Shown one piece after another: positions 15,436 through 47,397 of a stretch of DNA of 64,000 bases. The stretch spans positions 62,001-126,000 of the forward strand of contig NZ_MJAT01000036.1 of NCBI RefSeq assembly GCF_001742305.1, in the 5' to 3' direction. Every line of letters starts with the position of its first letter. The first letter of the stretch is position 1. The position numbers were made by a program, and so were the translations under genes. The notes under the pieces are model-generated. The model did not search any database and had not been told where the DNA came from. It saw nothing but the letters and a program-made list of their open reading frames with translations. The DNA is from Desulfuribacillus stibiiarsenatis. Lineage in GTDB: Bacteria; Bacillota; Bacilli; Desulfuribacillales; Desulfuribacillaceae.

Positions 15436-15585
15436 CTCTTATCCAGAGAGGTGGAGGGACTGGCCCGATGAAACCCGGCAACCTGTATTTAATATGAGGT
15501 GCTAATTCCTGCAGTAATCTGATAGATAAGAGAAAGTCATGGTTTATACGAATCCGAAGCTTTCTCACTATGAGAAAGCTTTTTT
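15436..15585 (+). promoter_or_regulatory. SAM-I (S-box) riboswitch with terminator
   Basis: The aptamer closes with helix P1 (CTCTTATC 15436-15443 with GATAAGAG 15525-15532) and holds the S-box core AGAGAGGTGGAGGGACTGGC, GATGAAACCCGGCAACC and GGTGCTAATTCCTGC. The terminator hairpin is AAGCTTTCTCA 15557-15567 with TGAGAAAGCTT 15571-15581 and T5. GAGAAAG at 15530-15536 can instead pair with CTTTCTC at 15560-15566, giving the antiterminator. SAM binding would stabilise P1 and switch the gene off. Confidence 0.96.
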
Positions 15586-25720: not shown

Positions 25721-25755
25721 AGTTAAAATTAACTTTTCCCATTGGGGTGACTGAT

Positions 25756-27810: not shown

Positions 27811-27827
27811 GTTATGAGGTGTCGATT

Positions 27828-28976
27828 ATGGAATGGCAACCGTATCGGTTAGTGGAAGGCAGAAAACTAAGACGGGGATTTACAACTGGGGCGGCTGCTA
27901 CAGCTGCTACTAAAGCTGCATTAGAATTACTTAGCCGGCAATTCGTATCATCCAAAGTTGATATTTCTCTGCCAACGCAACAAGAATATACTGTCTCTAT
28001 ACCTATTGATAGTTGCTTTTATAATAAAGATGGCTCCGTTACGGCATTCGTTATTAAAGACGGGGGAGACGACCCGGATGTAACGAATGGTATAAAAATT
28101 GGTGCTACAGTGAAATATGTCTCATTTCTTAACCATACGGATACAACTTTAGACGAATCTAACCAAGCTATACACATTAATGGTGGTACAGGAATAGGAA
28201 TCGTAACTAAACAAGGTCTGAAAGTTCGTGTAGGAGAGCATGCAATTAACCCAGTACCAAGGCAAATGATAAAAAATGTCGCTAAAACCTATGCTCAAAG
28301 GGGAAAGACTATTAATATTACCATTTTTGTTCCTGAGGGAGAGAAAATTGCTCATAAAACATTAAATCCTGCCTTAGGTATTATCGGTGGTATATCAATT
28401 CTTGGAACTACAGGAATTGTTGAGCCGATGTCGGAGGAAGCATATAAAGAATCCTTAGTCCCGCAGTTAGATATGGTACAAGCTTTAGGATATGATACTG
28501 TTTTTCTTACTCCTGGGAGGCGCGGGCAGTTAACACTGAATTCTTTCGGAATTCCTTTAGAACAGACGGTTCAAATGAGTAACTTTGTTGGGTATATGTT
28601 GAAAGAGTGTCAAATTCGGAAATTTAAGAAAGTCATTTTGTTTGGCACTCAAGGAAAGTTAATCAAACTTGCCGGGGGGATTTTTCATACACATCATCGC
28701 GTCGCGGATGCGCGTATTGAGATTTTAATCAGTGAAGCTGCGCTCAACGAAGTTCCTATTGATTTATTATTTCAATTACGCAATGAAGTGACGATTGAAG
28801 CGAGTGTAAAGCTTTTACAAGAACATGGGTATCATGTAGTTCTGCAAAAGCTTTGTGAAAAAGCTGCGATGAAAGCCGCTGATTATATTCAAAATGAAAT
28901 AGAGATAGGTGTAGTATTTCTTGATATAGATGGCAAAATTGTTGCAAAGAGTAATTCCGTAGATCAATGGTGGTGA
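27828..28976 (+). CDS. cbiD: cobalt-precorrin-5B C1-methyltransferase
   Basis: CbiD (382 aa) methylates C1 of the corrin ring in the anaerobic pathway. The N-terminal LRRGFTTGAAATAATKAAL is diagnostic, followed by the DGGDDPDVTNG motif and GGTGIGIVTKQGL. It is not related to the CbiE/F/H/L methylases. ATG 27828 is preferred, six bases after GAGGTG; an in-frame ATG at 27807 lacks an SD and overlaps the previous gene. Its presence marks the early-cobalt-insertion route. Confidence 0.95.
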   Translation: MEWQPYRLVEGRKLRRGFTTGAAATAATKAALELLSRQFVSSKVDISLPTQQEYTVSIPIDSCFYNKDGSVTAFVIKDGGDDPDVTNGIKIGATVKYVSFLNHTDTTLDESNQAIHINGGTGIGIVTKQGLKVRVGEHAINPVPRQMIKNVAKTYAQRGKTINITIFVPEGEKIAHKTLNPALGIIGGISILGTTGIVEPMSEEAYKESLVPQLDMVQALGYDTVFLTPGRRGQLTLNSFGIPLEQTVQMSNFVGYMLKECQIRKFKKVILFGTQGKLIKLAGGIFHTHHRVADARIEILISEAALNEVPIDLLFQLRNEVTIEASVKLLQEHGYHVVLQKLCEKAAMKAADYIQNEIEIGVVFLDIDGKIVAKSNSVDQWW

Positions 28977-28980
28977 AGTA

Positions 28981-30237
28981 GTGAATACTCAGTCAAGTAA
29001 AAAAATATATGTCATTGGTATGGGGTCGGGTGATCGTGACTATATCTTACCAATCGCTTTGCGAACAATTAAAAAAGTAGCTATTTTAATAGCAACTCAA
29101 CGTATTTTAGATATGTACGCACAAGATCAACATACGACACTTGTATTAAATAAAAATATAAAATCAACGATAGAGTTTGTAAGAAAAATGGAAGAAGATG
29201 TAGCTTTTTTAGTAAGTGGTGACCCGTTATGTTACAGTATTTTACCATATCTACAAAAAAATTTTAGCCAAGAATCTATTGAGGTAATACCAGGAATTAG
29301 CTCAGCACAAATTGCTTATAGCAAGTTTAAAATACCTCAACAGGATGCTCCTGTTGTTTCTATTCATGGAAGGGATAAGTCATTACTTGATAGTTATATC
29401 CATAAGTATTCAAGGTTCGCTTTATTAATAGATCAGGATATGACTGTGCAAGAGATTGCTAGTAAGATTATAGATTACGGATATCATTTAGCGGAAATTC
29501 ACATTGGGGATTGTTTAGGAACTGACAAACAAACTCTTGTAAAAGGACTAGCAGAGGATATTATCCATTGGAACCAACAATTTACGAATAGTGTTCTTTT
29601 AATAGATTTGCACAAAGAAAAAACGAATAAAGAAAAACATATAAACAAAGGTCATAGGATTTTTGCTCCCGGGATAGATGATTGTCACTTTATACAAGGT
29701 GATATTCCTATGACAAAACAAGAAATACGTTCGATTCTCTTATCTAAGCTTGTGTTTCCAAAACACGGTGTTTTTTATGACATTGGCGCAGGTACAGGTT
29801 CTATTTCTATAGAACTAGGACTCATGCAAGATGTTCAAGAGGTTCACTCTATGGAGAGAAACCATGCGGCAATCCAACTATTAAAACAAAATATACAAAA
29901 ATTTGCAGTAGATAATATTCACGTACATCACGGAGAGGCTTCTGAGATTATCCCCGAATTACCATTAGCAGATGGCATAATAGTAGGGGGCAGTGGAGGG
30001 TACCTGCAAGAAATTCTGCACTCTTCCTATAAGCAATTGAAAGCTAATGGAATCCTAGCGATTACTGGTGTAACTCTTGAAACCCCATACCTTGCAACAC
30101 AAATATTGGAAGGTTTGGGGATGAAAGTGGATATCTGTTCTGTTAACATTTCAAGAGCAAGTCAATCAGGATCTTATCATCTTTGGAAATCTAATAATCC
30201 TGTATTTATCATATGGGGTTGTAAAGGAGAATTATAG
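28981..30237 (+). CDS. cbiET: CbiE/CbiT fusion: precorrin-7 C5/C15-methyltransferase
   Basis: A bifunctional protein of 418 aa. Residues 1 to about 205 form the CbiE tetrapyrrole methylase (YVIGMGSGDRDYILP, VSGDPLCYSILP, EVIPGISSAQIA). Residues about 215-418 form CbiT, a Rossmann SAM methyltransferase with FYDIGAGTGSISIELG that also decarboxylates the C12 acetate. The same fusion is known as CobL in the aerobic pathway and is common in Firmicutes. Start GTG 28981 with GGTGG upstream. Confidence 0.94.
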   Translation: MNTQSSKKIYVIGMGSGDRDYILPIALRTIKKVAILIATQRILDMYAQDQHTTLVLNKNIKSTIEFVRKMEEDVAFLVSGDPLCYSILPYLQKNFSQESIEVIPGISSAQIAYSKFKIPQQDAPVVSIHGRDKSLLDSYIHKYSRFALLIDQDMTVQEIASKIIDYGYHLAEIHIGDCLGTDKQTLVKGLAEDIIHWNQQFTNSVLLIDLHKEKTNKEKHINKGHRIFAPGIDDCHFIQGDIPMTKQEIRSILLSKLVFPKHGVFYDIGAGTGSISIELGLMQDVQEVHSMERNHAAIQLLKQNIQKFAVDNIHVHHGEASEIIPELPLADGIIVGGSGGYLQEILHSSYKQLKANGILAITGVTLETPYLATQILEGLGMKVDICSVNISRASQSGSYHLWKSNNPVFIIWGCKGEL

Positions 30238-30239
30238 AT

Positions 30240-30938
30240 ATGAAACTCTATGGGGTAGGTGTTGGGCCAGGTGACCCAGATTGGTTAACTATGAAAGCAG
30301 TTCATGTAATACAAGAGGCTGATATAATAATGACACCAATCTCTAATCAAGATAAACAAAGTATCGCGTTATCTATTGTTGAAAAATATATCACAAACCA
30401 AAAAATTCATAGGGTTATTTTTCCGATGACAAGTGATCCGATACGGTTACAAGTAGCTTGGGAAGAAGCGCGTAACGATTTAGCACAATTTCTCATGGAA
30501 GGAAAAACTGTTGCCTTTATCACGTTAGGGGACCCGCTTTTGTATAGTACTTTTATATATCTTAAACATTCTATTCAAGAGCAACTTTCGAATTTATCGA
30601 TTGAAGTAGTACCGGGGATTCCTTCATTTGTAGCTTTATCGGCAATGGCACAAATACCAATTGCAGAACGTGATGAAAATCTTGTCGTTATTCCAGTGAT
30701 TCGTTCTCTTGATGAAGTGAAAAAAGCGATTGAATTACATGATAATATTATCTTAATGAAGATAAACAAAGATTATCCGGCCATAGTAGAACTTCTGGAC
30801 GAGATGCAATTACTAGATTGTTGTTGGGTCGGTCAACGGATTGGAATGGAAGACAGTATCATTACGAACCAACCTAAAGAATTATTGAATGGTAAATTGG
30901 ATTATTTAACAACTATGATGATTAAGAAAAAAAGGTAG
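30240..30938 (+). CDS. cbiL: cobalt-factor II / precorrin-2 C20-methyltransferase
   Basis: A canonical tetrapyrrole methylase (232 aa) that begins GVGVGPGDPDWLTMKAV, with the second SAM motif TLGDPLLYSTFIYL and EVVPGIPSFVALSA. It adds the C20 methyl group to cobalt-factor II. The start lies two bases after cbiET behind AAAGGAGA. Assigned to CbiL over other methylases from the PGDPDWLT opening and the length. Confidence 0.93.
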   Translation: MKLYGVGVGPGDPDWLTMKAVHVIQEADIIMTPISNQDKQSIALSIVEKYITNQKIHRVIFPMTSDPIRLQVAWEEARNDLAQFLMEGKTVAFITLGDPLLYSTFIYLKHSIQEQLSNLSIEVVPGIPSFVALSAMAQIPIAERDENLVVIPVIRSLDEVKKAIELHDNIILMKINKDYPAIVELLDEMQLLDCCWVGQRIGMEDSIITNQPKELLNGKLDYLTTMMIKKKR

Positions 30939-30946
30939 GTGTGGGA

Positions 30947-31711
30947 ATGTCCACAGTTATGTTTGTAGGTGCAGGACCAGGAGACATTGAATTAATAACG
31001 TTAAAGGGGTTAAGGGCATTACAATCAGCAGACATAATTATATGGGCTGGTTCCTTAATTAATCCTGAGATCCTTACATATGCAAAGAAAGACGCAGTAA
31101 TCTTTAATAGTGCTACTATGAATTTACAAGAAATCGTTGGTTGTATAGTTGATCATTATAATAAGGGCTATAAGGTTGTAAGGCTTCATACAGGCGACCC
31201 TAGTATTTTCGGAGCGATAGATGAACAGATAAGGGAATTAAGGAGAAATAATATCCCTATTGAGGTGATTCCTGGTGTCAGTTCATTTACTGCGGCTGCC
31301 GCTTCTATACAAAAAGAACTAACACTTCCGGAAGTATCACAAACAATTATTATCTCTAGAATATCAGGCAAAACTCCTGTTCCAAATAAAGAAGATTTAG
31401 CATTGTTGAGTATGCATCAAGCGACCATGTGTATTTTCTTAAGTGTTCATTACATACAAGAAGTAGTCGATAAATTGTTAGCAGGTTATCCAGAATCGAC
31501 ACCAATTTTTGTTGTTGAAAAAGCATCTTGGCCTGAGCAACGGATAGTCAAAGGTACTTTAAACAATATTGCAGAGAAGGTTAAAGAGGCAGAAATCAAA
31601 AAAACAGCTATGATTCTTGTAGGGAATGCATTAAATGATGAACTAGCAACTTGCTCTTTATTATACGATCAATCCTTTCAACACGAGTTCCGTACGGGAG
31701 TGAAACTATGA
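30947..31711 (+). CDS. cbiF: cobalt-precorrin-4 C11-methyltransferase
   Basis: A tetrapyrrole methylase (254 aa) with VMFVGAGPGDIELITLKG, IIWAGSLINPEIL (typical of CbiF/CobM), HTGDPSIFGAI and EVIPGVSSFTAAAA. It methylates C11 of the macrocycle. ATG 30947 is chosen, seven bases after AGGTAGG; an in-frame GTG at 30941 is too close to that SD. Its stop codon overlaps the cbiG start (ATGA). Confidence 0.94.
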   Translation: MSTVMFVGAGPGDIELITLKGLRALQSADIIIWAGSLINPEILTYAKKDAVIFNSATMNLQEIVGCIVDHYNKGYKVVRLHTGDPSIFGAIDEQIRELRRNNIPIEVIPGVSSFTAAAASIQKELTLPEVSQTIIISRISGKTPVPNKEDLALLSMHQATMCIFLSVHYIQEVVDKLLAGYPESTPIFVVEKASWPEQRIVKGTLNNIAEKVKEAEIKKTAMILVGNALNDELATCSLLYDQSFQHEFRTGVKL

Positions 31712-32928
31712 AAATAGCGATTACTTGCCTTACTCAAAATGGCTATCATATGGCAACTCAAATCGTGAAACAGCTGCGTGAAGATACAGCAGCTACTATT
31801 TTTGTGACGAGCAGATGCTATGATTCTATTACTGTAGACTCCGAGTTGGGAAAGTACGTTCAGATTATAAATGATGATATAGGATTGAAAAAAACGTTCC
31901 AAAGCAAATTTCATGAATATAATCACTGGACTATGATTATGTCTTTAGGTATTGTATTTCGAATGGCACCAACTGTCTTAATCGATAAATTTTCTGATCC
32001 ATCGATTACAGTTATTGATGATGCGGGTCAATTTGCAGTCGCTGTATGCTCCGGTCATTGGGGTGGGGGCAATGAATTCACAAAATATATAGCTACAATT
32101 ATCAATGCTGTGCCCGTGATTACTACTGGTACAGATACTTGGATGTTACCAGCTGTTGATGTCATAGCGAAAAATATTAATACTAGGATCTCTAGAGATA
32201 CAGTTTTAGCTATTAATAGCGCTATCATCCATAGAATGCCTGTATACTTTTGGAGTGATTGGGAAGCGGACGTTTTATTGGATGCTTATTGTCAATTCAA
32301 TCAGCATGAACATATACATTTTACAAAAATTATTTATCATCAGAATCATCATCCGACAGTTACAAAGCTGGTTAAAGATTCATCAAATGGAGTTAATTGT
32401 GGAAAATACAGGGAACCGATTCATGTGATTATCACGAATTCGAATCACAATCTGTTATTGAATAGTAATATCAAGGAACTGTTAATTGATAAAAACTTGA
32501 ATTCCAATTATTATATCCTAACGCCAAGAAACATTATTCTTGGTATTGGTTGTAAGCGCAATACACCAGCTGATATGATTGAACAGTGTATATTAGATGC
32601 TTGTCATCAAGCGAACGTTAGTATTGATTCAGTACGGGCGATTGCATCGATAGATTTAAAACAGGATGAGTTAGGAATACAATACGTAGCGGAAAAATAT
32701 AATTGCTCTTTTCTTACTGTCACGAAGGAACAAATATTAGTGTGGGAACAGCATCACGAAGGAAAATTTTCTAAGTCACAGCAAGTAAAAGACAAGGTAG
32801 GAGTGAATTGTGTATGCGAACCAGCAGCAATGATTGTTGCGAATCAAGGGAAAGTAATCTTGCCAAAAACAATTTACAAAGGTGTCACAATCGCGTTAGT
32901 CGAGGAAAAGTTTGGGTTATTGGCTTAG
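31708..32928 (+). CDS. cbiG: cobalt-precorrin-5A hydrolase
   Basis: CbiG (406 aa) opens the delta-lactone and releases acetaldehyde, giving cobalt-precorrin-5B. The N-terminal domain carries MSLGIVFRMAPTV and VCSGHWGGGNEFTK. The C-terminal domain has LGIGCKRNTPADMIEQ, ASIDLKQDELG and the closing GVNCVCEPAAMIVA with LPKTIYKGVTIALVEEKF. Both domains look complete. The start overlaps the cbiF stop by four bases. The last ~115 bases also encode the proposed N-terminus of cbiH in the -1 frame. Confidence 0.94.
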   Translation: MKIAITCLTQNGYHMATQIVKQLREDTAATIFVTSRCYDSITVDSELGKYVQIINDDIGLKKTFQSKFHEYNHWTMIMSLGIVFRMAPTVLIDKFSDPSITVIDDAGQFAVAVCSGHWGGGNEFTKYIATIINAVPVITTGTDTWMLPAVDVIAKNINTRISRDTVLAINSAIIHRMPVYFWSDWEADVLLDAYCQFNQHEHIHFTKIIYHQNHHPTVTKLVKDSSNGVNCGKYREPIHVIITNSNHNLLLNSNIKELLIDKNLNSNYYILTPRNIILGIGCKRNTPADMIEQCILDACHQANVSIDSVRAIASIDLKQDELGIQYVAEKYNCSFLTVTKEQILVWEQHHEGKFSKSQQVKDKVGVNCVCEPAAMIVANQGKVILPKTIYKGVTIALVEEKFGLLA

Positions 32929-33647
32929 GACCTGGGGATCATCAGCTTATGAGTTATCAAGCAAAGCATGTATTACAGGAGTCAGAAGTAGTTGTAGGTT
33001 ACACTACGTATATAGAGTTGATCCAAGATATAATCGCTCCTCATCAAACGGTAATCCGTTCGCATATGAAAAAGGAAGTAGAACGTGCTCTAGAAGCACT
33101 AGAAGAAGCGAAAGCTGGTAAGGTCGTTTCAGTAATTTCTAGTGGAGATGCAGGGATATATGGGATGGCAGGATTAATTCTAGAGTTATTGTATAAGAAT
33201 AATCTAGAAGAATATATAGAGGTGGAAATTGTACCTGGGATTTCAGCCGTACAAGCTGCTGCCGCTCGATTAGGGGCACCGTTAATGCACGACTTTGCAT
33301 GTATCAGTTTGAGTGACTTACTAACTCCCTGGCAGACAATTGTAAAAAGGATTCATCATGCAGCTCAAGGGGACTTTGTAATTGTTTTATATAACCCGAA
33401 GAGTAAGAAGCGAATCGAGCAAATACAAGAAGCAGTTGATATTTTGTTACAATACAAAAAAACAGATACTCCTGTTGGAATTGTCAAATCCGCTTATCGT
33501 GAAGGGGAAGAAGTACATATTTCGAGTTTGGAGTCATTACTAGAGCATGAGATTGATATGTTTACTACCATTATTATAGGAAATCAATCAACTTTTATGA
33601 ATAAGACACACATGATTACTCCTAGGGGTTATAATATTCATGAGTAA
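32814..33647 (+). CDS. cbiH: cobalt-factor III C17-methyltransferase
   Basis: CbiH contracts the ring while methylating C17. The conserved part begins at RGKVWVIGLGPGDHQ (residue 30 in this model) and continues with VISSGDAGIYGMAGL, EIVPGISAVQAAAARLGAP and LSDLLTPW. The start is uncertain. No ATG, GTG or TTG occurs in frame near the conserved N-terminus. The nearest is ATG 32814, ten bases after AGGAGTG inside cbiG, giving a 29-residue Cys-containing extension unlike CbiH. A -1 frameshift from cbiG is an alternative. Confidence 0.85.
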   Translation: MRTSSNDCCESRESNLAKNNLQRCHNRVSRGKVWVIGLGPGDHQLMSYQAKHVLQESEVVVGYTTYIELIQDIIAPHQTVIRSHMKKEVERALEALEEAKAGKVVSVISSGDAGIYGMAGLILELLYKNNLEEYIEVEIVPGISAVQAAAARLGAPLMHDFACISLSDLLTPWQTIVKRIHHAAQGDFVIVLYNPKSKKRIEQIQEAVDILLQYKKTDTPVGIVKSAYREGEEVHISSLESLLEHEIDMFTTIIIGNQSTFMNKTHMITPRGYNIHE

Positions 33648-34443
33648 CCCGCTTGGATATCGAATATTATTGTTTGGTGGTACTCAAGAGTCTCGAGAAT
33701 TCGTAATGGATTTGAAAAACAATCATCCAGATCTTTTTGATTCTACCATTGTTTCAGTAACGTCATCTTATGGCGCTAGTTTGTTACCATGTGGAACTCA
33801 AGTCTATATTCAACGGTTGAACGTGGAGGATATGTTGCAATTTTGCTTAGTGCAAAAGGTAAGATGTATTGTTGATTTGAGTCATCCATTTGCAGCCCAG
33901 GTTAGTATTAATGCTATAGACGCATCGGAAAAGTTAAAAATTCAATACATTCGTTTTGAACGCGAACCGATACACATTTCTAATTTATCTCATCATGCCA
34001 ATGATAACCTGCATATTGTATATAGCTATGAAGAAGCTGCAAAAGTAGCGTTTTCTTTAGGTGAGAGAATACTTCTTACTACAGGTAGTAAGACTTTAAA
34101 GGTTTTTGTTGATTACCGTACACCTAATAAACACTTGATGGTACGTGTATTACCAACTTCAGAGGTGATTACTATATGTGAATCGCTTGGATTCACACCC
34201 GATCATATTATCGCCATGAAAGGGCCTTTTTCCAAAAAAATGAACCAAATGATCCTAGAGGACTATAAAATAGATGTAATGGTAACGAAAGAAAGTGGCG
34301 CTACTGGAGGATTTGCAGAAAAGGTTGAAGCCGCTTTAGAAATGAATATAAAAGCTATCGTCATAGCAAGACCTAATATTCAATATCCATTCTATACAAA
34401 TGCATTTGAAGATATCTATAAAAAAATTTACGAGGTGGCGTAA
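33640..34443 (+). CDS. cbiJ: cobalt-precorrin-6A reductase
   Basis: CbiJ/CobK (267 aa) reduces the C18-C19 double bond with NAD(P)H. The opening LFGGTQESREF is the dinucleotide-binding start, followed by IVDLSHPFAAQVSINA, RFEREPI, LLTTGSKTLKVF and MVTKESGATGGFAEKVEAA, all typical. It overlaps the end of cbiH by eight bases and its stop touches the start of cbiX, consistent with translational coupling. Confidence 0.94.
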   Translation: MSNPLGYRILLFGGTQESREFVMDLKNNHPDLFDSTIVSVTSSYGASLLPCGTQVYIQRLNVEDMLQFCLVQKVRCIVDLSHPFAAQVSINAIDASEKLKIQYIRFEREPIHISNLSHHANDNLHIVYSYEEAAKVAFSLGERILLTTGSKTLKVFVDYRTPNKHLMVRVLPTSEVITICESLGFTPDHIIAMKGPFSKKMNQMILEDYKIDVMVTKESGATGGFAEKVEAALEMNIKAIVIARPNIQYPFYTNAFEDIYKKIYEVA

Positions 34444-34814
34444 TGAAAGGTATTATTATCTTAGGACATGGTAGTAGGAATAAAGATTCAATCGCTGAGC
34501 AAAATCAAGTGATTCCTATGATTCAAGAAATGCTACCAGATTATACAGTGAGAAATGCGTTTTTTCAACTATGCGAACCAAAGTTTGAAGATATATTAAA
34601 TGAAATGATTCAAGATGGCTTTCAAGATATCACGGTTATGCCATTACTTTTATTTGCAGGTGTTCATGTGCAAACAGATATTCCTGAACTGATCCAGGAA
34701 TACCGTAGTCAATATCCGGACATTTCATTTGCGTTAACAAAGCATATTGGAGCCCATAAAAAAATAGCAGAGATAGCTGTTGAAAGAATAGTAGATGGTG
34801 ATATTGATGCGTAA
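34443..34814 (+). CDS. cbiX: sirohydrochlorin cobaltochelatase, short CbiX form
   Basis: A single chelatase domain of 123 aa that inserts Co2+ into sirohydrochlorin, the first committed step of the anaerobic route. IILGHGSRNKDS carries one metal-binding His, and LLLFAGVHVQTDIPEL carries the second. Only one ~120-residue module is present, as in the CbiX-S type best known from archaea, which acts as a homodimer, whereas most bacterial CbiX proteins are about twice as long. Both active-site histidines are present, so it is unlikely to be a fragment. Confidence 0.9.
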   Translation: MKGIIILGHGSRNKDSIAEQNQVIPMIQEMLPDYTVRNAFFQLCEPKFEDILNEMIQDGFQDITVMPLLLFAGVHVQTDIPELIQEYRSQYPDISFALTKHIGAHKKIAEIAVERIVDGDIDA

Positions 34815-35451
34815 TTATATTCACAATCCAATGAAAATTGAAGATACTAGTTTTGATATTATTAATAATGAACTTAACGAGATGGGAAAACAAGTACCAC
34901 AAGAGTTTCAACATATCATTCATAGGGTTATACATACCACTGCAGATTTTGAATATGCAGATCTTCTGCATTTCTCTGATGGGGTCCTACAGGTCATCGA
35001 ACAAGCTCTTAATCATGGTTGTAATATCATAACAGATGTACAAATGGTTTTAGCAGGAGTGAACAAGAAGACATTACAGAATATTGGTTGCCAAACGTAT
35101 TGTTTTATTTCCGATTCACAAGTGGAGTCATTAGCCAAGGAGCAATCCATTACTCGGTCAATGGCGTCCATACAGTTTGCCAAACCTTATTTACCGAATA
35201 GTATTGTACTCATTGGAAATGCACCTACTTTTTTATTTGAGTTATTGTCTGCCATTGAAAATGAATCCCTTAGACCTGCAGCAATTATAGGAACTCCTGT
35301 TGGTTTTGTGGGCGCCGTAGAAGCAAAGGAGCTTTTACTGCAACAATTGAATATTCCATTTATAGTTTCACGCGGAAGAAAAGGTGGGAGTCCAGTGGCT
35401 GCTGCTATTTTAAATGCAATTTTGAAACAAAGAATGAACCAAAGGGCTTAG
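34807..35451 (+). CDS. cbiC: cobalt-precorrin-8 methylmutase
   Basis: CbiC (214 aa) moves a methyl group from C11 to C12 to give cobyrinic acid. The N-terminus YIHNPMKIEDTSFDII is the family signature; HRVIHTTADFEYADLL holds the catalytic His, and the C-terminal VSRGRKGGSPVAAAILNA is conserved. ATG 34807 is chosen because it starts the protein directly before that signature; ATG 34795 would add four residues. It overlaps cbiX by eight bases. Confidence 0.94.
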   Translation: MRNYIHNPMKIEDTSFDIINNELNEMGKQVPQEFQHIIHRVIHTTADFEYADLLHFSDGVLQVIEQALNHGCNIITDVQMVLAGVNKKTLQNIGCQTYCFISDSQVESLAKEQSITRSMASIQFAKPYLPNSIVLIGNAPTFLFELLSAIENESLRPAAIIGTPVGFVGAVEAKELLLQQLNIPFIVSRGRKGGSPVAAAILNAILKQRMNQRA

Positions 35452-35453
35452 AT

Positions 35454-37394
35454 ATGAAAAATCAATTTGTGATTGCAGCAACACATAGTGGTTGTGGTAA
35501 AACAACAATTACATTAGGGCTATTAAAAGCATTGATAGATAGAGGATATGATGTGCAAAGTTTTAAATGTGGTCCTGACTTCTTAGATCCAATTTTGCAT
35601 GAGTATGTGACGAATCGTCCTTCCAATAATTTGGATACGTGGATGTTAGATGAGGTTAGCAATCGAAAGATATTTCATAAATATGCTAGTAACTGTGATA
35701 TCTCAATCATCGAAGGAGTCATGGGAACTTTTGATGGAAGTGAAGGGGTTGGTCAAAAGGGTAGTACCGCCGATTTAGCAAAACTACTGTCATTGCCTGT
35801 GCTCCTTGTTGTTGATGCACAGGGCATGGCTGGAAGTATTGTACCTTATATTGCAGGTTTCCTACAATGGGATTCGGGAATTCGATATTGTGGTATTCTG
35901 CTAAATCGAGTCGGTAGCGAAAGTCATGGAAACCTATTGAAAGGTTTAATCGAAGAAAATTTAAACGTACCAGTGATTGGATTCTTACCTAAAAATCCTG
36001 ACATTACACTACCTTCAAGGCATTTAGGATTACGTACTGACTATAACGTTGATGTTTGGTCAGAGACAATTCAATTGATAGCTAATTTTATTGAAAAGCA
36101 TGTTAATATTGAAGAACTGTTACAATATACAGCAGTACCACAGAACTCTAATACAATTCAGGAAGAGCTAGTCACTGAAACAATACAATATAGTATAAAT
36201 AGGTTAATTAAGACTGAAGAATCTCATAGTGACGAAAAAATTACTATTGGGATTGCTAAAGATGAGGCATTTAAATTTTATTATCATGAGAATCTAGAAC
36301 TATTGAAATCTTCCCAAATAAATCTTGTTGAATTTAGCCCGCTGAATGATTGGACCCTTCCCGATGTAGATGCTATATACATTGGTGGTGGCTATCCTGA
36401 AGTATATAAAGAGCAATTAGCCCATAATGCTGGTTTTATCAAAAATCTAAGAGATAAAATTAACGATGGAATGCCTGTTTTTGCTGAATGTGGCGGATAT
36501 ATGTATCTGGCAGAAGCTATCGATGGGGTTCCAATGGTAGGTGTGGTTCCAGGCAAAATTACCATGGAATCACGTTTTCAAGCATTGGGATACGTAGAAG
36601 CATTAACGGCATCTGAAGGTTTTATGATGCAGGGGATTCCTATAAGAGGGCATGAATTTCATTATTCAAAACTTACCTCAGAGATACCAGCAGATCAACA
36701 AAAACCTGCATTTCAATATTTAGGACGTAAAGCAGGCAAGATATCTGGTTATCATTCCAATCATATATTTGCTAGCTATGTTCATGTACATTTTCTTAGT
36801 AATATTGATTTTGTCTCTTCGTTCGTTAATGCCGCTTACTTGTATCGAAATCAGTTGAAACAAAGACAAAATAGCATTGAAAATCAATTGAATATTCAAG
36901 TCCATACGGGAAATGGTAAAGGGAAAACCACAGCTGCAATCGGGAATGTGATTGCGCGATTACCAAATAAGGCAGGTATTGTACAATTTCTTAAAGGCTC
37001 AAGAGACACTGGTGAAAAAATAGTATTCTATCATTTAGAACAAGTAGACTTATTTACATGTGGCACTGGTAAATTTATAAGAAACTCAAATCCAACACAA
37101 GATGATTATCGGGAAGCTGAGAATGGCTTGCTTAAGGCAAACGAGTTCGTGAAAAACCCAAGTTACAAAACAATTGTGCTTGATGAGATATCCCATACAA
37201 TTAACAAAGGATTAATCTCAATCACTGATATCTTAGAGTTAATACGCTTAAAGTCACCGGAAACGTTACTGATTTTAACTGGTCGTGATATGCCTAATGA
37301 GCTAATGGAAGTAGCAGATTGTGTTATGCACTATCGTCAAGAAAAACATCCATATGAGAAAAATATACAAGCTAGAAGAGGGATTGAATATTAA
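35454..37394 (+). CDS. cbiA-cobO: fusion: cobyrinate a,c-diamide synthase (CbiA) + cob(I)yrinate adenosyltransferase (CobO/BtuR)
   Basis: A 646-aa two-domain protein. Residues 1-455 are CbiA: P-loop AATHSGCGKTTITLG, SIIEGVMGTFDGSEG, and a glutaminase domain with GGGYPEVY and ECGGYMYLAEA (nucleophile Cys346). After a short Gln/Asn-rich linker, residues about 479-646 are CobO: VHTGNGKGKTTAAIG (P-loop from Gly486), VQFLKGSRDTGE, VLDEISHTINKGL and the C-terminal ARRGIEY. CbiA amidates the a and c carboxylates; CobO adds the adenosyl group to that product, so consecutive steps are joined. The frame is unbroken through the junction. Confidence 0.93.
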   Translation: MKNQFVIAATHSGCGKTTITLGLLKALIDRGYDVQSFKCGPDFLDPILHEYVTNRPSNNLDTWMLDEVSNRKIFHKYASNCDISIIEGVMGTFDGSEGVGQKGSTADLAKLLSLPVLLVVDAQGMAGSIVPYIAGFLQWDSGIRYCGILLNRVGSESHGNLLKGLIEENLNVPVIGFLPKNPDITLPSRHLGLRTDYNVDVWSETIQLIANFIEKHVNIEELLQYTAVPQNSNTIQEELVTETIQYSINRLIKTEESHSDEKITIGIAKDEAFKFYYHENLELLKSSQINLVEFSPLNDWTLPDVDAIYIGGGYPEVYKEQLAHNAGFIKNLRDKINDGMPVFAECGGYMYLAEAIDGVPMVGVVPGKITMESRFQALGYVEALTASEGFMMQGIPIRGHEFHYSKLTSEIPADQQKPAFQYLGRKAGKISGYHSNHIFASYVHVHFLSNIDFVSSFVNAAYLYRNQLKQRQNSIENQLNIQVHTGNGKGKTTAAIGNVIARLPNKAGIVQFLKGSRDTGEKIVFYHLEQVDLFTCGTGKFIRNSNPTQDDYREAENGLLKANEFVKNPSYKTIVLDEISHTINKGLISITDILELIRLKSPETLLILTGRDMPNELMEVADCVMHYRQEKHPYEKNIQARRGIEY

Positions 37395-37936
37395 TGATTT
37401 ACTCAATTAGTGGCGGTGCCCGAAGTGGAAAAAGTAAGTTTGCTGAAGCGCTTGCATTGCAATTATCTGAAAAATATCAAACCGAAGTTATATATATTGC
37501 CACCTGTGAGTTCGTTGATGAGGAAATGGCAGACAGGGTAAAGCGACATGTAGAGCAACGGCCTAGCGATTGGAAAACGATAGAAGAACCGATTAAATTA
37601 GAAAATATGATTGCTAGTTTTAAAAGCGAAAATATCATTCTAATTGATTGCTTGACTTTATGGATATCAAATCTCCTCGTTAGAAACCACACAGAAGAGG
37701 AAATAATAGAACGTTTGCACGCACTGTGCCAATACATGAAAACAACTTCTCATCAATGTATTTTTGTCACCAATGAGGTTGGGTTAGGAATTATACCATC
37801 AAATGAATTATCTCGGAAGTTTCGAGATATTGCTGGCTTATCAAATCAAATACTTAATTATTATGCAGATGAGAAGATTTTTGTTCTTTCCGGAATACCA
37901 ATTGATTTAAAGAAAATATCGTGGGAAGGGGTGTAA
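37394..37936 (+). CDS. cobU: adenosylcobinamide kinase / guanylyltransferase
   Basis: CobU (180 aa) phosphorylates adenosylcobinamide and attaches GMP. The P-loop ISGGARSGKSKFAE is at residues 5-18. The segment RVKRHVEQRPSDWKTIEEP contains the guanylylated His region. LIDCLTLWISNLL and VTNEVGLGIIPSNELSRKFRD complete the pattern. Its ATG overlaps the stop of cbiA-cobO by one base (TAATG). Confidence 0.95.
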   Translation: MIYSISGGARSGKSKFAEALALQLSEKYQTEVIYIATCEFVDEEMADRVKRHVEQRPSDWKTIEEPIKLENMIASFKSENIILIDCLTLWISNLLVRNHTEEEIIERLHALCQYMKTTSHQCIFVTNEVGLGIIPSNELSRKFRDIAGLSNQILNYYADEKIFVLSGIPIDLKKISWEGV

Positions 37937-37942
37937 TGCTCA

Positions 37943-39502
37943 ATGAAGATACCTGCTATTATGCTCCAAGGGACATCTTCTGATGTTGGGAAAAGTATTC
38001 TTGCTACAGCGTTATGTAGAATTTTTAAGCAGGATCAGTTTGCAGTTACACCTTTTAAATCTCAAAATATGGCATTAAATTCTTATATTACAGCTGATGG
38101 TGGGGAAATTGGTCGTGCACAAGCAGTACAAGCTTTTGCAGCGGAAGTCACACCTACAGTCGATATGAATCCGATTCTACTTAAACCTAGCCGTGAAATG
38201 ATGGCAGAGGTAATAGTTCACGGGAAAACTGTAGAAAACATGAGTGCAAAAGCATATCGAAATCATTTCATTGATCAAGCATTACAATCTATTAATTTAT
38301 CTTTGCAAAGACTGCAAAACCAATATGACGTAATTGTTATAGAAGGAGCAGGGAGTCCGGCAGAGATTAATTTGAAAGACCGAGATATAGCAAATATGAA
38401 AATAGCTGAACTAGCAGACGCTAAAGTAGTCCTTGTAGCAGATATTGATAGAGGCGGGGTGTTTGCCTCTATTGTTGGAACGTTAGAATTACTATCACAA
38501 CAAGAACGAGACAGAATTATAGGTTTTATTATTAACAAATTTCGTGGGGATATTGAGCTTTTACAGCCTGGTCTTACATGGTTAGAAGAACGTACAGGTA
38601 AAAAAGTGCTAGGTGTCGTTCCCTATATCACAAATTTGAAGATCGAAGCTGAGGACTCGCTTGCGTTAACCAAAACATATCAATCTTCGCAACAAAAGTT
38701 CAAACAGTGTACTGTAAGGGTTGGGGTTATACAATTCTCTAAAATATCAAATTTTACAGACTTTGATTGTTTGCAGTTAGAAGCAATGATAGATTTACAA
38801 TTTATTCAATCAACTGATCTAGAGACGAATTTCTTAGACTTTGATGCGATAATATTACCTGGCACGAAAAACACGATGGACGACTTATATCAACTTCAGA
38901 TCTCTGGCATAGATAGAAAAATCATTCAATATGCAAATGATGGTGGATTAGTGATTGGGATTTGCGGAGGATATCAGATATTAGGCAAACATCTCTATAA
39001 TCCGCATAGTAATGACTCGGAGATTGAATATTTAGAAGGATTAGGTCTGATTCCTGTGGAAACTCGATTCGAAAAAACGAAGATTACGCAACAGGTCGTA
39101 GGAGAATTTGTAGACTCATTATTCTCCGACACGCATAATTGCCTAGGAAAGACAGTAAAAGGGTTTGAAATTCACACAGGAAGAACGGAATATTTAGAGA
39201 ATGCCATTCCGCTCATTAAAATACGTTTACGTTCGAACACCCCTACTGATAGTTTGGATGGTTGTCGGAATCAAATGGGAAATGTATTTGGTAGCTATTT
39301 TCATGGGATTTTTGATAATGATATATTTCGCCGAATGTGGATAAATTATATGATGATTCGAAAGGGTCAAAAGCCATTGGATCAGTCTGATTTTATCAAG
39401 TACGAGGGTAGTCATGACTATCAATTCGATCAACTAGCAAATATTGTTAGAGAAAACGTGAATATTGAAACTATTTATCAACAGATTTCTTTGTATAAAT
39501 AA
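37943..39502 (+). CDS. cbiP: cobyric acid synthase (glutamine-hydrolysing)
   Basis: CbiP/CobQ (519 aa) amidates the b, d, e and g carboxylates of adenosylcobyrinate a,c-diamide. The dethiobiotin-synthetase-like ATPase domain carries MLQGTSSDVGKSILA and FKSQNMALNSYIT. The C-terminal glutaminase domain has LPGTKNTMDDL, GICGGYQILGKHL with its Cys, and GSYFHGIFDND. SD GGAAGGGG lies upstream of the ATG. Confidence 0.96.
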   Translation: MKIPAIMLQGTSSDVGKSILATALCRIFKQDQFAVTPFKSQNMALNSYITADGGEIGRAQAVQAFAAEVTPTVDMNPILLKPSREMMAEVIVHGKTVENMSAKAYRNHFIDQALQSINLSLQRLQNQYDVIVIEGAGSPAEINLKDRDIANMKIAELADAKVVLVADIDRGGVFASIVGTLELLSQQERDRIIGFIINKFRGDIELLQPGLTWLEERTGKKVLGVVPYITNLKIEAEDSLALTKTYQSSQQKFKQCTVRVGVIQFSKISNFTDFDCLQLEAMIDLQFIQSTDLETNFLDFDAIILPGTKNTMDDLYQLQISGIDRKIIQYANDGGLVIGICGGYQILGKHLYNPHSNDSEIEYLEGLGLIPVETRFEKTKITQQVVGEFVDSLFSDTHNCLGKTVKGFEIHTGRTEYLENAIPLIKIRLRSNTPTDSLDGCRNQMGNVFGSYFHGIFDNDIFRRMWINYMMIRKGQKPLDQSDFIKYEGSHDYQFDQLANIVRENVNIETIYQQISLYK

Positions 39503-39534
39503 ATACAACAAAAATCGTAGACACGAGGCGATCT

Positions 39535-40500
39535 ATGTTTTTTTCATCAAGTATTGTGATCTTTGCAATTATGGTTGACCGTTTTATTGGAGATCCTAAG
39601 AGATATCATCCCGTAGTGCTTATAGGGTATATGATTAGTAAATTAGAGCAAATTCTTTATCCACAGTTAGCAGGAACCCCATTCGTCAAAAAGTTTTTAG
39701 GTGGTGTTTTAGTTAGTACTGTGATTATTTTTACTTGGGTTGTCTCTTACTACGTCTATATATTAGTATTCGCCATTCATCATTGGCTTGGTTACGCGAT
39801 TGCAATATATCTCATGTCATTAACAATGACTTGGAAGGGATTAAGGGATGCTGCAGTCTCAATCTATATGCTATTAATGGATAATCGAGTACAAAACGCC
39901 AGACATGAAGTAGGGATGATAGTAGGAAGAGATACTGTAGAACTAAATGATTCGGAAATCAGCCGGGCTACCATCGAATCCGTATCGGAAAACTTAGTAG
40001 ATGGAGTAATCGCTCCTGTATTTTATGGGTTTTTATTTGGGATGCCAAGTGCATTTGTATATCGATCGATTAATACAATGGATTCCATGTTAGGTTATAA
40101 AAATGAACGCTATGCTGACTTTGGTTTTTGCGCTGCAAAAATTGATGATGTCATGAATTGGATACCTGCAAGAATTAGTTATGTTCTTATTATGCTTGCA
40201 GTAATGATTGGCAAATTTCACTTTCGCTTAGCTGCTTTAACTGTTAGAAATGACGCCGCCAAGCACCCTAGTCCCAATAGTGGCATACCTGAATCTGCTT
40301 TTGCAGGTGCATTAAATGTTCAATTAGGTGGTACAAACTACTATCAAGGAACCCCATCATTTAGAGCATATCTAAATGAGTTTGGGAGAAAATCGGAACC
40401 TATTGACATCAAGAAAGCAGTCCAATTATTAGATTTAACTATGATGATCACAGTTAGCATGCTAGGTATCATAGCCGTATTAATTCATCTTGTATGGTAG
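39535..40500 (+). CDS. cbiB: adenosylcobinamide-phosphate synthase
   Basis: A membrane protein of 321 aa joining aminopropanol phosphate to cobyric acid. It opens with VDRFIGDPKRYHPVVLIG, the family signature. VGRDTVELNDSEISRATIESVSEN (conserved core, quoted in part as IESVSENLVDGVIAPVFY) and MDSMLGYKNERYADFG follow. About four to five hydrophobic segments are visible. SD CGAGGCG precedes the ATG. Confidence 0.95.
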   Translation: MFFSSSIVIFAIMVDRFIGDPKRYHPVVLIGYMISKLEQILYPQLAGTPFVKKFLGGVLVSTVIIFTWVVSYYVYILVFAIHHWLGYAIAIYLMSLTMTWKGLRDAAVSIYMLLMDNRVQNARHEVGMIVGRDTVELNDSEISRATIESVSENLVDGVIAPVFYGFLFGMPSAFVYRSINTMDSMLGYKNERYADFGFCAAKIDDVMNWIPARISYVLIMLAVMIGKFHFRLAALTVRNDAAKHPSPNSGIPESAFAGALNVQLGGTNYYQGTPSFRAYLNEFGRKSEPIDIKKAVQLLDLTMMITVSMLGIIAVLIHLVW

Positions 40501-40510
40501 GAGGTGTCAA

Positions 40511-41269
40511 ATGGAACTACTAAAAACTTTATTTGTAGCTATTACGTTTTTAACAAAAATTCCAATGCCCTTGATACCGTATCAAGAAAAAAGACTCAGA
40601 GAATCTGTGATATTCTTCCCTGTGGTCGGAGCGTTAATCGGTTCATTATATGTACTAATCTATACTGCGGCCCAAGGGTTATTAACTACTATGATTGCAG
40701 GTGTATTCGTTTTGTTTTTTGGTGCGGTAATTACAGGTTTTCTGCATTATGACGGTTTAATGGATACATTTGATGGAATCGGCAGCCAGAAACCGAAAGA
40801 TGCTATTTTAGAAATTATGAAAGACAGTAGAGTAGGCGCAATTGGTGTTATTATGACTATTTTTATTACGTTATTACAATGGTCTGCCATTGTGAGCATT
40901 CCGGAAATATACATATTAGCAATTTTATTTGTAGCACCAATCATCAGTAGAAGTATGATGGTTTATGCTATGTTTTTATTTCCATCAGCAAAACATGGAG
41001 AAGGCTTGGGTGGGATTTTTGCAAAAAAAGTTAATATTCGCCAATTATCGATTGTATTTATCATTACGATTGGTTTATCTGTAATTGCTTTGCAAATGTA
41101 TGGAGTTTTGTTATTTATTCTCGTATTGGGGTTTTCAATTTTTACTATGAAATATATCAGCATGCAAGTTGGTGGAATGACAGGAGATACCTATGGAGCA
41201 ATTCAGGTAATTGCTGAACTTTACGTTTATTTATTTGCTGTATTTGTATTTAAAGGCGGATGGCTTTAG
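40511..41269 (+). CDS. cobS: adenosylcobinamide-GDP ribazoletransferase
   Basis: CobS (252 aa) is a polytopic membrane enzyme that joins alpha-ribazole to adenosylcobinamide-GDP. The active-site region GFLHYDGLMDTFDGIGS and KDSRVGAIGVI are clear, with several hydrophobic helices after it. ATG 40511 directly follows a near-perfect AGGAGGTG SD; an in-frame start at 40490 is inside cbiB and rejected. It abuts pduX with no gap. Confidence 0.95.
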   Translation: MELLKTLFVAITFLTKIPMPLIPYQEKRLRESVIFFPVVGALIGSLYVLIYTAAQGLLTTMIAGVFVLFFGAVITGFLHYDGLMDTFDGIGSQKPKDAILEIMKDSRVGAIGVIMTIFITLLQWSAIVSIPEIYILAILFVAPIISRSMMVYAMFLFPSAKHGEGLGGIFAKKVNIRQLSIVFIITIGLSVIALQMYGVLLFILVLGFSIFTMKYISMQVGGMTGDTYGAIQVIAELYVYLFAVFVFKGGWL

Positions 41270-42226
41270 ATGAATCAACAAACTATTCAGGTTCGTGTAC
41301 CTGGTACTTGCGGGGAATGGTCCCAAGGGTATATAGATGGGGAACCTTTTCTGATTACTTGCCCTATTCAAAAATACACTGTAGTACAAATAGAATACTC
41401 TCCGCAGACCGTTGGTTCTAGTTTGTCTTTCGTGATGAGCCACGAGAAAAGAAAAGTTCATCAAGCGCTAGCTTTATTGTTACATTCACTTGAAGTTAGT
41501 GGTAGTTTCACCGTTAAGTTTCTTGATGAGCTACCAATGCACAAAGGTTATGGAAGTAGTACTGCTGATATTACAGCCGTTTTATTAGGGGTAAGCAAAT
41601 TACTCTTCAATACTCCAATGGACGCAAGTAAAATTTTAGATATAGCCACAAAGATTGAGCCTTCGGACGGCGTGATGTATAACGGAATTGCTGCAGTCAA
41701 TCAAAGGGATGGCAAACAGATGTTACTCATAGCCCCCCCCCTTACAAATCCAGTATTTATTATAGATTATGGAATCCATATTAACACTCTAGAATGGAAT
41801 CAATTACTTAAGGACCAAGCAAAGTTTTATTCAAAGAGTGAGCGTTCTCATAAAATGAAAGACAGTTTCTGTTGTATTAGGGATGGAATTGCTTACAATA
41901 ATCTACCTGCTCTTAAAATGGGATGTGCGATTAGTAGAGATATACTTCACGAATATCTCAACCAATATAAGATACCATATTACCCGATGTTAGGGTTTTA
42001 TAATCAATTATCTACTTCTTTGCAAAGTTGCATTGAAGCTATCATTCCTTCGCATAGTGGTTCCATTGAAGGCTATGTATTGAAAGAAGATTTATCAATG
42101 GCACAAAAAAAAGTACTAAGTCATATTGCAGCAGAAAATGAGTGGGAAATTGAGTTTACATATTTAGGTAACGGCGGGGGAGAGTTTTATGATTGTGCGA
42201 CCAATTCATGGAGGAAATGTACATAG
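41270..42226 (+). CDS. pduX: L-threonine kinase (GHMP family, PduX-like)
   Basis: A GHMP-superfamily kinase (318 aa) making L-threonine O-3-phosphate, the precursor of the aminopropanol linker. It begins VRVPGTCGEWSQGYIDG and has the GHMP phosphate loop MHKGYGSSTADITAVL, then KIEPSDGVMYNGIA. Its position next to cobD, which decarboxylates that product, supports the role. A run of nine C lies at 41733-41741 within the gene. The 3' end overlaps cobD by 38 bases. Confidence 0.9.
   Translation: MNQQTIQVRVPGTCGEWSQGYIDGEPFLITCPIQKYTVVQIEYSPQTVGSSLSFVMSHEKRKVHQALALLLHSLEVSGSFTVKFLDELPMHKGYGSSTADITAVLLGVSKLLFNTPMDASKILDIATKIEPSDGVMYNGIAAVNQRDGKQMLLIAPPLTNPVFIIDYGIHINTLEWNQLLKDQAKFYSKSERSHKMKDSFCCIRDGIAYNNLPALKMGCAISRDILHEYLNQYKIPYYPMLGFYNQLSTSLQSCIEAIIPSHSGSIEGYVLKEDLSMAQKKVLSHIAAENEWEIEFTYLGNGGGEFYDCATNSWRKCT
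41733..41741 (+). repeat. homopolymer of nine C inside pduX
   Basis: Nine consecutive C at about residue 155 of PduX (codons for Ala-Pro-Pro-Leu). Long C runs are rare in this AT-rich window and are prone to slippage or sequencing length errors; the frame as given is intact. Confidence 0.9.
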
Positions 42227-43247
42227 CGAAAATAGCGATACAATAGATTTCAGTGCGAATATCAACCCATGGGGACCACCAAGAGGTTTAAAAGATCACT
42301 TAATGTCAGCTTATGATCAAATTATTCACTACCCTGAGCCTACCGCTAATAACCTTAAGAACCAGTTAAGTATTGATTTACAAGTAGCAATGGACAGTCT
42401 AGTCGTTGGGAATGGAGCTATAGAGTTGATCTATTTGCTGGCTCAAGCAAAGCGGTATCAGACAGTTGTTGTTATTACACCTACTTTTCAAGAATACGAA
42501 TATAGCTTGAGAAAAAGTAGTGCAAAAATAATTCATTATTTTCTTGAGGAAGGTCACAAATTTTCTCTTATAGTTAAAGAATTTATAACATGGATTGATA
42601 CAATAGATGGCAAACCCGATGCCATCTATTTCTGTAATCCCAATAATCCAACTGGAAGTTATGTTCCTTCTGTCCAATTAAAACCATTATTAGAGTTCAC
42701 CGCTCACAATCAAATTGATTTCATTGTAGATGAGTCATTTATCGAGTTCACAGAAACCTGTGGTTTGATACATTATACAAAGAAATACCATAACTTACTG
42801 TTAATTCGTTCCATGACTAAATTTTATAGTATACCAGGCTTGCGATTAGGATACATGATTTGCGCTCCTACAGTAGCTTCGCTAATAGAATCTTATCAGC
42901 CGCCATGGTCAGTGAATGTATTTGCCCAATACGCAGGGGAATACGTGTTGAGAGATCAGAATTTTGTTAATAATTCCATCTTTCAAAATCGAATGCAGAG
43001 ATTTTATTTGCAATCTGTATTGCAAAGTAATAAGTTATTTACAATCTATCCGTCTTATACAAACTTTCTACTTTTAAAAACTGATTCTCACCTTGTCGGC
43101 AATCTAATATCTCATTTATATAAACATAAAATATTGATTCGTGATTGTAGTAACTTTGTAGGTTTGGAGAAGGGATATATACGTATAGCAGTGAAAGGCG
43201 AAGCAGAGAATCAGAAATTACTAGATGCTGTTTCAAAATTTCGTTAA
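42189..43247 (+). CDS. cobD: threonine-phosphate decarboxylase
   Basis: A PLP enzyme (352 aa; class I aminotransferase fold, histidinol-phosphate aminotransferase-like) producing (R)-1-amino-2-propanol O-2-phosphate. It opens HGGNVHSENSDTIDFSANIN, typical of CobD. It also shows FCNPNNPTGSYVP and the PLP-lysine segment RSMTKFYSIPGLRLGYM. The name follows the Salmonella convention. Start ATG 42189 follows GGCGGGGGAGA inside the end of pduX. The product feeds CbiB. Confidence 0.92.
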   Translation: MIVRPIHGGNVHSENSDTIDFSANINPWGPPRGLKDHLMSAYDQIIHYPEPTANNLKNQLSIDLQVAMDSLVVGNGAIELIYLLAQAKRYQTVVVITPTFQEYEYSLRKSSAKIIHYFLEEGHKFSLIVKEFITWIDTIDGKPDAIYFCNPNNPTGSYVPSVQLKPLLEFTAHNQIDFIVDESFIEFTETCGLIHYTKKYHNLLLIRSMTKFYSIPGLRLGYMICAPTVASLIESYQPPWSVNVFAQYAGEYVLRDQNFVNNSIFQNRMQRFYLQSVLQSNKLFTIYPSYTNFLLLKTDSHLVGNLISHLYKHKILIRDCSNFVGLEKGYIRIAVKGEAENQKLLDAVSKFR

Positions 43248-43263
43248 CTGAGAGGGTGAATAG

Positions 43264-43857
43264 ATGCGTGTGGTAATGGTAAGGCATGGAGAAACAGATT
43301 GGAATTTACACAGAAAATACCTTGGACATACGGATGTCCCGTTAAACCAGAAAGGATATTTCGAAACGGCAGAAATATGTGAAAATTTATTGAGTGATTT
43401 GGCACCGCTAAATGGTAATATTCTTATAGCTTCCAGTGATTTGCAACGCTGTTTGTACCTTGCGAAGAGGGTTCAAGAACGTTTACATGTGAAAACGGAT
43501 ATAATCGTTAATAAAAGTTTTAGAGAAATCGACTTTGGTGATTGGGAAGGTTTGACCTTTGATGAAATCCAAGACAAGTATCCGAAACAAGCGGCTTTAT
43601 TTTTAAAACAACCGAATCAGTTACTATTTAACGGAGAAAATCTAGAACAATTTAGCGATAGAATAGTAAACGGAATTCAAAACATATATAATGATGTTAA
43701 AGATATTCATAATATAAATACACTTCTTATAATTACTCATGGTGGTGTGATACGAGTATTGAAGTCGTTGATTCACAAGGGTACGCCTTCGGATTATTGG
43801 CAATACTCTGCAAATCATGGAGAAGTGTTTTGCTTTGAATATCCATACGTTAGTTAA
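43264..43857 (+). CDS. cobC: alpha-ribazole-5'-phosphate phosphatase (histidine phosphatase family)
   Basis: A phosphoglycerate-mutase-like phosphatase (197 aa) with the catalytic VMVRHGETDWNLHRKYLGH (phospho-His in RHGE), SSDLQRCLYLA and the second His in LIITHGGVIRVL. In cobalamin operons this family removes the phosphate from alpha-ribazole phosphate or from cobalamin phosphate. The assignment relies on operon context because the family is broad. SD GAGAGGGTG precedes the ATG. Confidence 0.85.
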   Translation: MRVVMVRHGETDWNLHRKYLGHTDVPLNQKGYFETAEICENLLSDLAPLNGNILIASSDLQRCLYLAKRVQERLHVKTDIIVNKSFREIDFGDWEGLTFDEIQDKYPKQAALFLKQPNQLLFNGENLEQFSDRIVNGIQNIYNDVKDIHNINTLLIITHGGVIRVLKSLIHKGTPSDYWQYSANHGEVFCFEYPYVS

Positions 43858-46830: not shown

Positions 46831-46869
46831 ATGAATAATAGTGCCATTGGAAAGGCCGTGGGGAAATAT

Positions 46870-47397
46870 ATGTTAGTACAAATTTATTTTGGCGATGGAA
46901 AAGGCAAGACAACTGCTGCAATCGGTCTTGCTATTCGTGCATTAGGGCATGATTTTAAAGTTGGTATTGTATTTTTTATGAAAAATCCTAGCTTTTTTCC
47001 TATGGGTGAGAATCAAACTCTTGCTTTACTACAAAAGAATATGCCAAATAACTTGCAGGTATTTTTTTATGGGAAAGCTGGGTGGGTGTTACAAGATCAA
47101 CTCGAAGATATTGATCGTCAAGAGGCAATTCAAGGTTTGCAGAAGTGTAAAGATTTAATTAATCAGTGCGATCTTTTAATCATGGATGAAATATTAAATG
47201 CAATACATTTTAATCTTATATCAGAAGATGCAGTGCTGGATTTTATACATAATAAGCCAAGAGATTTAGAAGTTGTACTAACGGGCAGAAAAGCGAGTAA
47301 GCGTTTCATAGATAAAGCTGACCTAGTTACCGAGGTAGTTGAGATTAAACACCCGTATCACACTAGGTTGGAAGCAAGAAAAGGAATTGAGTATTAA
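46870..47397 (+). CDS. cobO: CobO/BtuR-type corrinoid adenosyltransferase, stand-alone
   Basis: A 175-aa P-loop protein: IYFGDGKGKTTAAIGLA (Walker A at residues 8-15), LLIMDEILNAIHFNL and the C-terminal LEARKGIEY. It matches the cob(I)alamin/cob(I)yrinate adenosyltransferase family and resembles the C-terminal domain of the fused protein at 35454-37394, so it is a second copy. The first motif is GDGKGKTT instead of GNGKGKTT, and the middle is divergent (MKNPSFFPMGENQ). It lies outside the cobalamin operon, between ypeB and the PilZ gene. SD GTGGGG. Confidence 0.87.
   Translation: MLVQIYFGDGKGKTTAAIGLAIRALGHDFKVGIVFFMKNPSFFPMGENQTLALLQKNMPNNLQVFFYGKAGWVLQDQLEDIDRQEAIQGLQKCKDLINQCDLLIMDEILNAIHFNLISEDAVLDFIHNKPRDLEVVLTGRKASKRFIDKADLVTEVVEIKHPYHTRLEARKGIEY

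Follow-up and report, generated by a model that had tools for sequence, protein, structure and literature searches.

A CbiA–CobO gene fusion among the cobalamin synthesis genes of Desulfuribacillus stibiiarsenatis

In cobalamin synthesis, CbiA converts the c and a side chains of the corrinoid to amides, and an adenosyltransferase then acts on its Co(I) form (PMC7242693). The preceding reduction of Co(II) to Co(I) takes place at one of two sites: on a reductase such as CobR, or on the adenosyltransferase itself, where a flavin or flavoprotein can reduce four-coordinate Co(II) (PMC4083273, PMC7242693). Fused pathway steps are already known from CobL and CysG (PMC7242693), and NCBI names a bifunctional CobBC (NF053748) in which a second enzyme is joined to the C terminus of a CobB/CbiA enzyme; that partner is a histidinol-phosphate-aminotransferase-like protein, not an adenosyltransferase.

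Here we describe a gene of Desulfuribacillus stibiiarsenatis in which CbiA continues in frame into a CobO-type ATP:corrinoid adenosyltransferase. It lies in a 64,000-nucleotide stretch of contig NZ_MJAT01000036.1 that we call the window, whose numbering we use throughout. The fusion resembles CobBC in carrying its partner at the C terminus of a CobB/CbiA enzyme, but it scores 337.5 bits against NF053748, below the cut-off of 950, and aligns with positions 4–455 only of the 797-position profile. With CobL, CysG, the CbiET of the operon in the window and a CbiA-CbiP-like protein from a genome of the same class, it shares the joining of neighbouring steps in one chain, and it differs from all of them in the partners joined. 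We regard it as a rare and probably bifunctional CbiA–CobO fusion in a pathway where fusions (CobL, CysG, CbiET, CobBC) are routine.

One open frame for CbiA and CobO

The fused gene, encoding a cobyrinate a,c-diamide synthase followed by an ATP:corrinoid adenosyltransferase, occupies 35454–37394 on the forward strand and runs from ATG to stop without a break in frame (646 residues). Three Pfam domains score above their cut-offs: CbiA at residues 6–191 (65 bits), GATase_3 at 264–449 (129 bits) and CobA_CobO_BtuR (PF02572) at 481–646 (159.3 bits against a gathering cut-off of 25.7), the last covering positions 5–172 of a 172-position profile and thus nearly all of it. When the organism's own genome was searched, the CobO domain fell inside a stop-free open frame of 706 codons, and the codon-position GC content of the CobO part (GC1.47, GC2.34, GC3.28) matches that of the neighbouring genes. 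The first-pass annotation, which had read a single uninterrupted 646-residue frame, was right in this respect, and the fusion is confirmed as real in the assembled sequence.

The CbiA part (residues 1–450; 35454–36803, forward strand) comprises a dethiobiotin-synthetase-like ATPase domain at about 1–228 and a class I glutaminase domain at about 260–450, with Cys346 and His444. It scores 473.2 bits over residues 4–447 against the NCBIfam model for cobyrinic acid a,c-diamide synthase (NF002204; cut-off 254) and 432 bits against TIGR00379 (cut-off 261.4). All of the motifs are in place: the P-loop at residue 13, GPDFLDP (GPDxxDP) at 40, IEGVMG at 86, AECGGY with the cysteine nucleophile at 344, GHEFHYS at 399 and YVHVHF, the C-terminal histidine motif, at 442. 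Among solved structures, modelled residues 1–228 match dethiobiotin synthetases (BioD; Z about 18) and residues from about 260 to 470 match GatD glutaminases (Z 18–19). The branch leading to this part is long in the CbiA tree (1.89 against a median of 0.39), and the sequence agrees at 91% of the 105 columns conserved across 128 CbiA sequences. The description of this part as a complete cobyrinate a,c-diamide synthase is well founded on the family scores and motifs. Residues 4–461 correspond to known CbiA/CobB proteins motif for motif and at scores far above the cut-offs, but the usual protein measures about 455–480 residues and stops after its C-terminal helix, whereas here CobO comes next.

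At the junction (residues 451–478; 36804–36887, forward strand), which reads ...NAAYLYRNQLKQRQNSIENQL|NIQVHTGNGKGKTT, alignments show the C-terminal helix of CbiA ending almost immediately before the first CobO strand. An AlphaFold2 model of the fusion, for which 85 proteins from the window and the loci were aligned as input, is confident as a single structure (mean pLDDT 92.1, pTM 0.80), and its DSSP assignment gives an unbroken helix at 451–476 that joins the domains, followed by the first CobO strand at 481–486.

A full anaerobic cobalamin gene set surrounds the fusion (27807–43857, forward strand). It runs from cbiD through cbiET, cbiL, cbiF, cbiG, cbiH, cbiJ, cbiX and cbiC to the fusion, with cobU following it at 37394, and continues with cbiP, cbiB, cobS and pduX-like, cobD-like and cobC-like genes. 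These open reading frames lie on one strand and mostly overlap or stand less than about 30 bases apart; Pfam supports cbiX, cbiC, cobU, cbiP, a tetrapyrrole methylase and a GHMP kinase, and the other names come from reading the sequences. Rfam found no cobalamin riboswitch upstream of the set between window positions 24500 and 29500. Directly 5' of cbiD lies a molybdopterin oxidoreductase gene (25747–27810, forward strand) whose stop overlaps the cbiD start. The only Rfam match in the 64-kb window is a SAM riboswitch (15436–15532), ahead of a PLP enzyme of Cys/Met metabolism.

A divergent CobO domain and a second, free CobO

The CobO domain (residues 479–646; 36888–37391, forward strand), delimited by PF02572, structure and motifs, has the fold of the CobA/CobO/BtuR family (Salmonella CobA, 4hut and 1g64): in the model it superimposes on 4hut chain A with Z 23.9 and an rmsd of 2.0 over 169 residues. 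It keeps the P-loop GNGKGKTT (486–493), Walker B (VLDEI, 575–579), TGR (609–611, in LTGR), KHPY (631–634, in KHPYE) and GIEY (643–646, in RRGIEY). In other respects it departs from the family, being joined to CbiA and so having no free N terminus, and having lost two patterns. Arg-Ala-x-Gly after the P-loop helix, a motif that we drew empirically from a 57-sequence sample and that is no curated family criterion, is identical in the 56 other CobO sequences and reads Ala-Arg-Leu-Pro in the fused domain, with Ala501 aligned to the Arg51 position and Arg502 adjoining it. The segment that holds Phe91 and Trp93 in Salmonella CobA (GFTW) reads GKFIR. None of the same 57 sequences agrees with fewer of the conserved columns (76% for the fused domain) or sits on a longer branch (2.62, against a median of 0.22).

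The first-pass annotation had described a complete CobO domain with its own P-loop and had named the loss of key residues in one domain as evidence against its reading. The fold, the P-loop and most motifs bear the description out; Arg-Ala-x-Gly is absent, and together with the Phe91/Trp93 pattern it represents a partial loss of key residues from CobO. Scores against the NCBIfam cobA equivalog models fall below both cut-offs (138.3 against 167.75 for TIGR00708; 149.5 against 185 for NF004637), but this says little about the fused domain, because the genome's own free CobO falls short of them as well, as do the CobO proteins of three other genomes (G001, G138 and G265), so that the cut-offs exclude this branch. 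Some other CobO proteins (L014, L030 and L031) carry an insertion in the region of the corrinoid loop with cysteines in a CxxCGxC-like spacing, for example CPHAAVIKSGFMNCQKCGQC, which resembles a metal-binding loop; neither CobO copy in the window has one.

The free CobO is encoded by a separate gene for 188 residues at 46831–47397 on the forward strand (PF02572, 184 bits). It is 33% identical to the fused domain and is the sister of G001 CobO in the tree (support 98/92). Its gene stands outside the cobalamin set, with a sleB/ypeB pair on one side and a PilZ (YcgR-like) gene on the other. We found no PduO-type enzyme in the whole genome, so the two CobO copies are its only adenosyltransferases of these two families, and adenosylation would depend on them unless an EutT-type enzyme is present. 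Four B12-binding domains score above cut-off in the genome.

With a second CobO at hand, the fused domain could be catalytically weak or a binding or regulatory remnant of a real fusion, leaving the free protein to adenosylate the a,c-diamide. Its rank as the most divergent of 57 sequences, its loss of Arg-Ala-x-Gly and the Phe91/Trp93 pattern, and the intact look of the second copy all favour this reading. However, the P-loop, Walker B, TGR, KHPY and GIEY have survived a very long divergence. The reading frame is also open with a coding-like composition, and the model fits 4hut at an rmsd of 2.0. The free CobO and the G138 and G001 copies are likewise divergent at conserved columns, and the branch of the free CobO is also long (1.59), so long branches are partly a property of the lineage. 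On balance we consider a weak or remnant domain unlikely.

In Salmonella CobA, the four-coordinate Co(II) form is reached when Phe91 and Trp93 push aside the lower base of cobalamin, a base that cobyrinic acid a,c-diamide does not carry. The loss of both residues may for this reason be tolerable in a domain that serves de novo synthesis alone. The free CobO probably serves corrinoid salvage. A further step, which we advance only tentatively, is that the fused domain has become specialised for the lower-ligand-free a,c-diamide, shedding the Phe91/Trp93 lower-base machinery as the free CobO took over salvage. Such a division of duties would offer a clean test of whether the need for Phe and Trp is limited to corrinoids with a lower base.

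Rarity, adjacency and origin

The first-pass annotation was unsure how widespread the architecture might be. We surveyed 787 genomes by whole-protein searches of 398 genomes of the phylum and 399 of the class, two partly overlapping sets, which gave matches at the set thresholds in 292 and 165 genomes, respectively; the best matches of each were listed. A fusion was expected to appear as a single stop-free match over about residues 5–646, or as a CbiA match within a frame of more than 600 residues. Among the matches listed from these 787 genomes, each candidate having been opened, there was no second single-frame CbiA–CobO fusion, and the long open frames (more than about 560 residues) inspected around other CbiA genes contain no CobO. 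Class-wide searches around G138, G265 and G087 took in 3, 10 and 20 genomes, and a scan of genome contigs with the fused protein as single query returned no relative. Outside the phylum, coverage consisted of 80 named loci, none of them fused (0/80), and plasmid matches, for which 276 records were found; in the two that were opened, both from Thermus, cbiA and cobO are separate but adjacent. NCBIfam holds no model for the architecture, and our literature search, which covered the matching papers in part, returned no report of a CbiA–CobO fusion. The census indicates that the fusion is very rare within the sampled genomes. Among long frames of other kinds, one genome of the same class (G469; L167:1383–4199) has a single frame of 939 codons in which the CbiA-type ATPase domain and the GATase_3 domain each occur twice, a CbiA-CbiP-like arrangement (CbiP being cobyric acid synthase).

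Adjacency of the two genes is common: cbiA is followed by cobO at 12 of the 19 loci that ranked highest in the phylum search and at 7 of the 19 that ranked highest in the class search. A single in-frame stop is all that parts them in three genomes (G138, G048 and G035; loci L049, L062 and L063) and on a Chloroflexota contig (L090). Since four relatives have exactly this layout, and a TTG codon stands at 36888 immediately ahead of the first CobO strand, the fusion might in the cell be two polypeptides, either through an assembly or sequencing error that erased a stop or through an additional internal start for CobO. Yet no in-frame start candidate between codons 440 and 484 has a ribosome-binding site, whereas the G138 junction carries a purine-rich stretch; anti-Shine-Dalgarno energies lie between +0.7 and −1.1 kcal/mol at these candidates and between −4.0 and −11.2 kcal/mol at the starts of the other operon genes, for which the cbiC and cobS coordinates used are not exact start codons. 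With an assembly that is 99.86% complete and 0.27% contaminated, we judge two polypeptides to be very unlikely.

Because adjacent cbiA and cobO genes are common and four pairs differ from a fusion by one in-frame stop, loss of the stop codon between adjacent genes would be the easy and cheapest route to a single gene, and we infer that the fusion arose in this way. The tree favours neither candidate source of the fused CobO: topologies joining it to the clade of cbiA-adjacent CobO (p-AU 0.30) or grouping it with the free CobO (p-AU 0.076) were both retained, with a deep split from the latter (33% identity). The second of these values neither shows nor excludes that the fused domain came from the free CobO by recent duplication. 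In G001, the sole family relative compared, cbiA and cobO lie at different places and are not fused; as its genes are apart and its CbiA is not the one closest to the CbiA of the fusion, G001 does not show the ancestral state.

Pathway chemistry and possible uses

We place the probability that the CbiA–CobO fusion is a bifunctional enzyme of de novo cobalamin synthesis at roughly 0.7, both activities being predicted from sequence and model. Domains above cut-offs, motifs in both parts, one model with a joining helix and the match to 4hut support this, as do the lack of an internal Shine-Dalgarno sequence, the cbiA–cobO adjacency in relatives, the same-strand cobalamin genes on both sides, the missing PduO-type enzyme and the B12-binding domains. 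The case is weakened by the divergence of the fused CobO and its two lost patterns, by a second CobO that may suffice alone, by the lack of a homologous fusion that would show the architecture to be conserved and by a stop-loss origin that the tree leaves unsettled.

In the bifunctional enzyme, the N-terminal part would carry out CbiA/CobB chemistry, amidating cobyrinic acid on its c and a side chains at the expense of ATP and glutamine. Once the a,c-diamide had been reduced to Co(I) at the CobO site, the C-terminal domain would move the 5'-deoxyadenosyl group from ATP onto its cobalt. That CbiA makes the a,c-diamide and CobO adenosylates exactly that product, as first proposed, agrees with the domain identities, with their order and with the described pathway (PMC7242693). 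What CbiA passes on is the Co(II) a,c-diamide, and labile Co(I) never travels between the domains. The proposal that the covalent link protects or channels Co(I) between active sites draws on the consecutive steps on one corrinoid and on a survey of metabolic fusions that linked fused neighbouring enzymes to unstable metabolites and hypothesised their channelling, but it is highly improbable. Co(I) is generated not at CbiA but on the adenosyltransferase or on a reductase (PMC4083273, PMC7242693), so that no such benefit follows, and the survey also reports that channelling was not promoted by fusion in itself (PMC4921024). Plausible benefits would instead be an equal stoichiometry and the passing on of the Co(II) a,c-diamide within close range; we favour stoichiometry and proximity as the putative advantage.

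If active, the fusion would unite two successive late steps of B12 synthesis in one ready-made chain, which could be used in cell-free or engineered B12 pathways and in asking whether proximity matters at the step from Co(II) to the Co(III)-adenosyl form. Otherwise it is one further gene fusion, ordinary in kind, within a fusion-rich pathway. Elsewhere in the window, at 49716–51695 on the forward strand, IspH (LytB) and four S1 RNA-binding domains are joined in one fusion.
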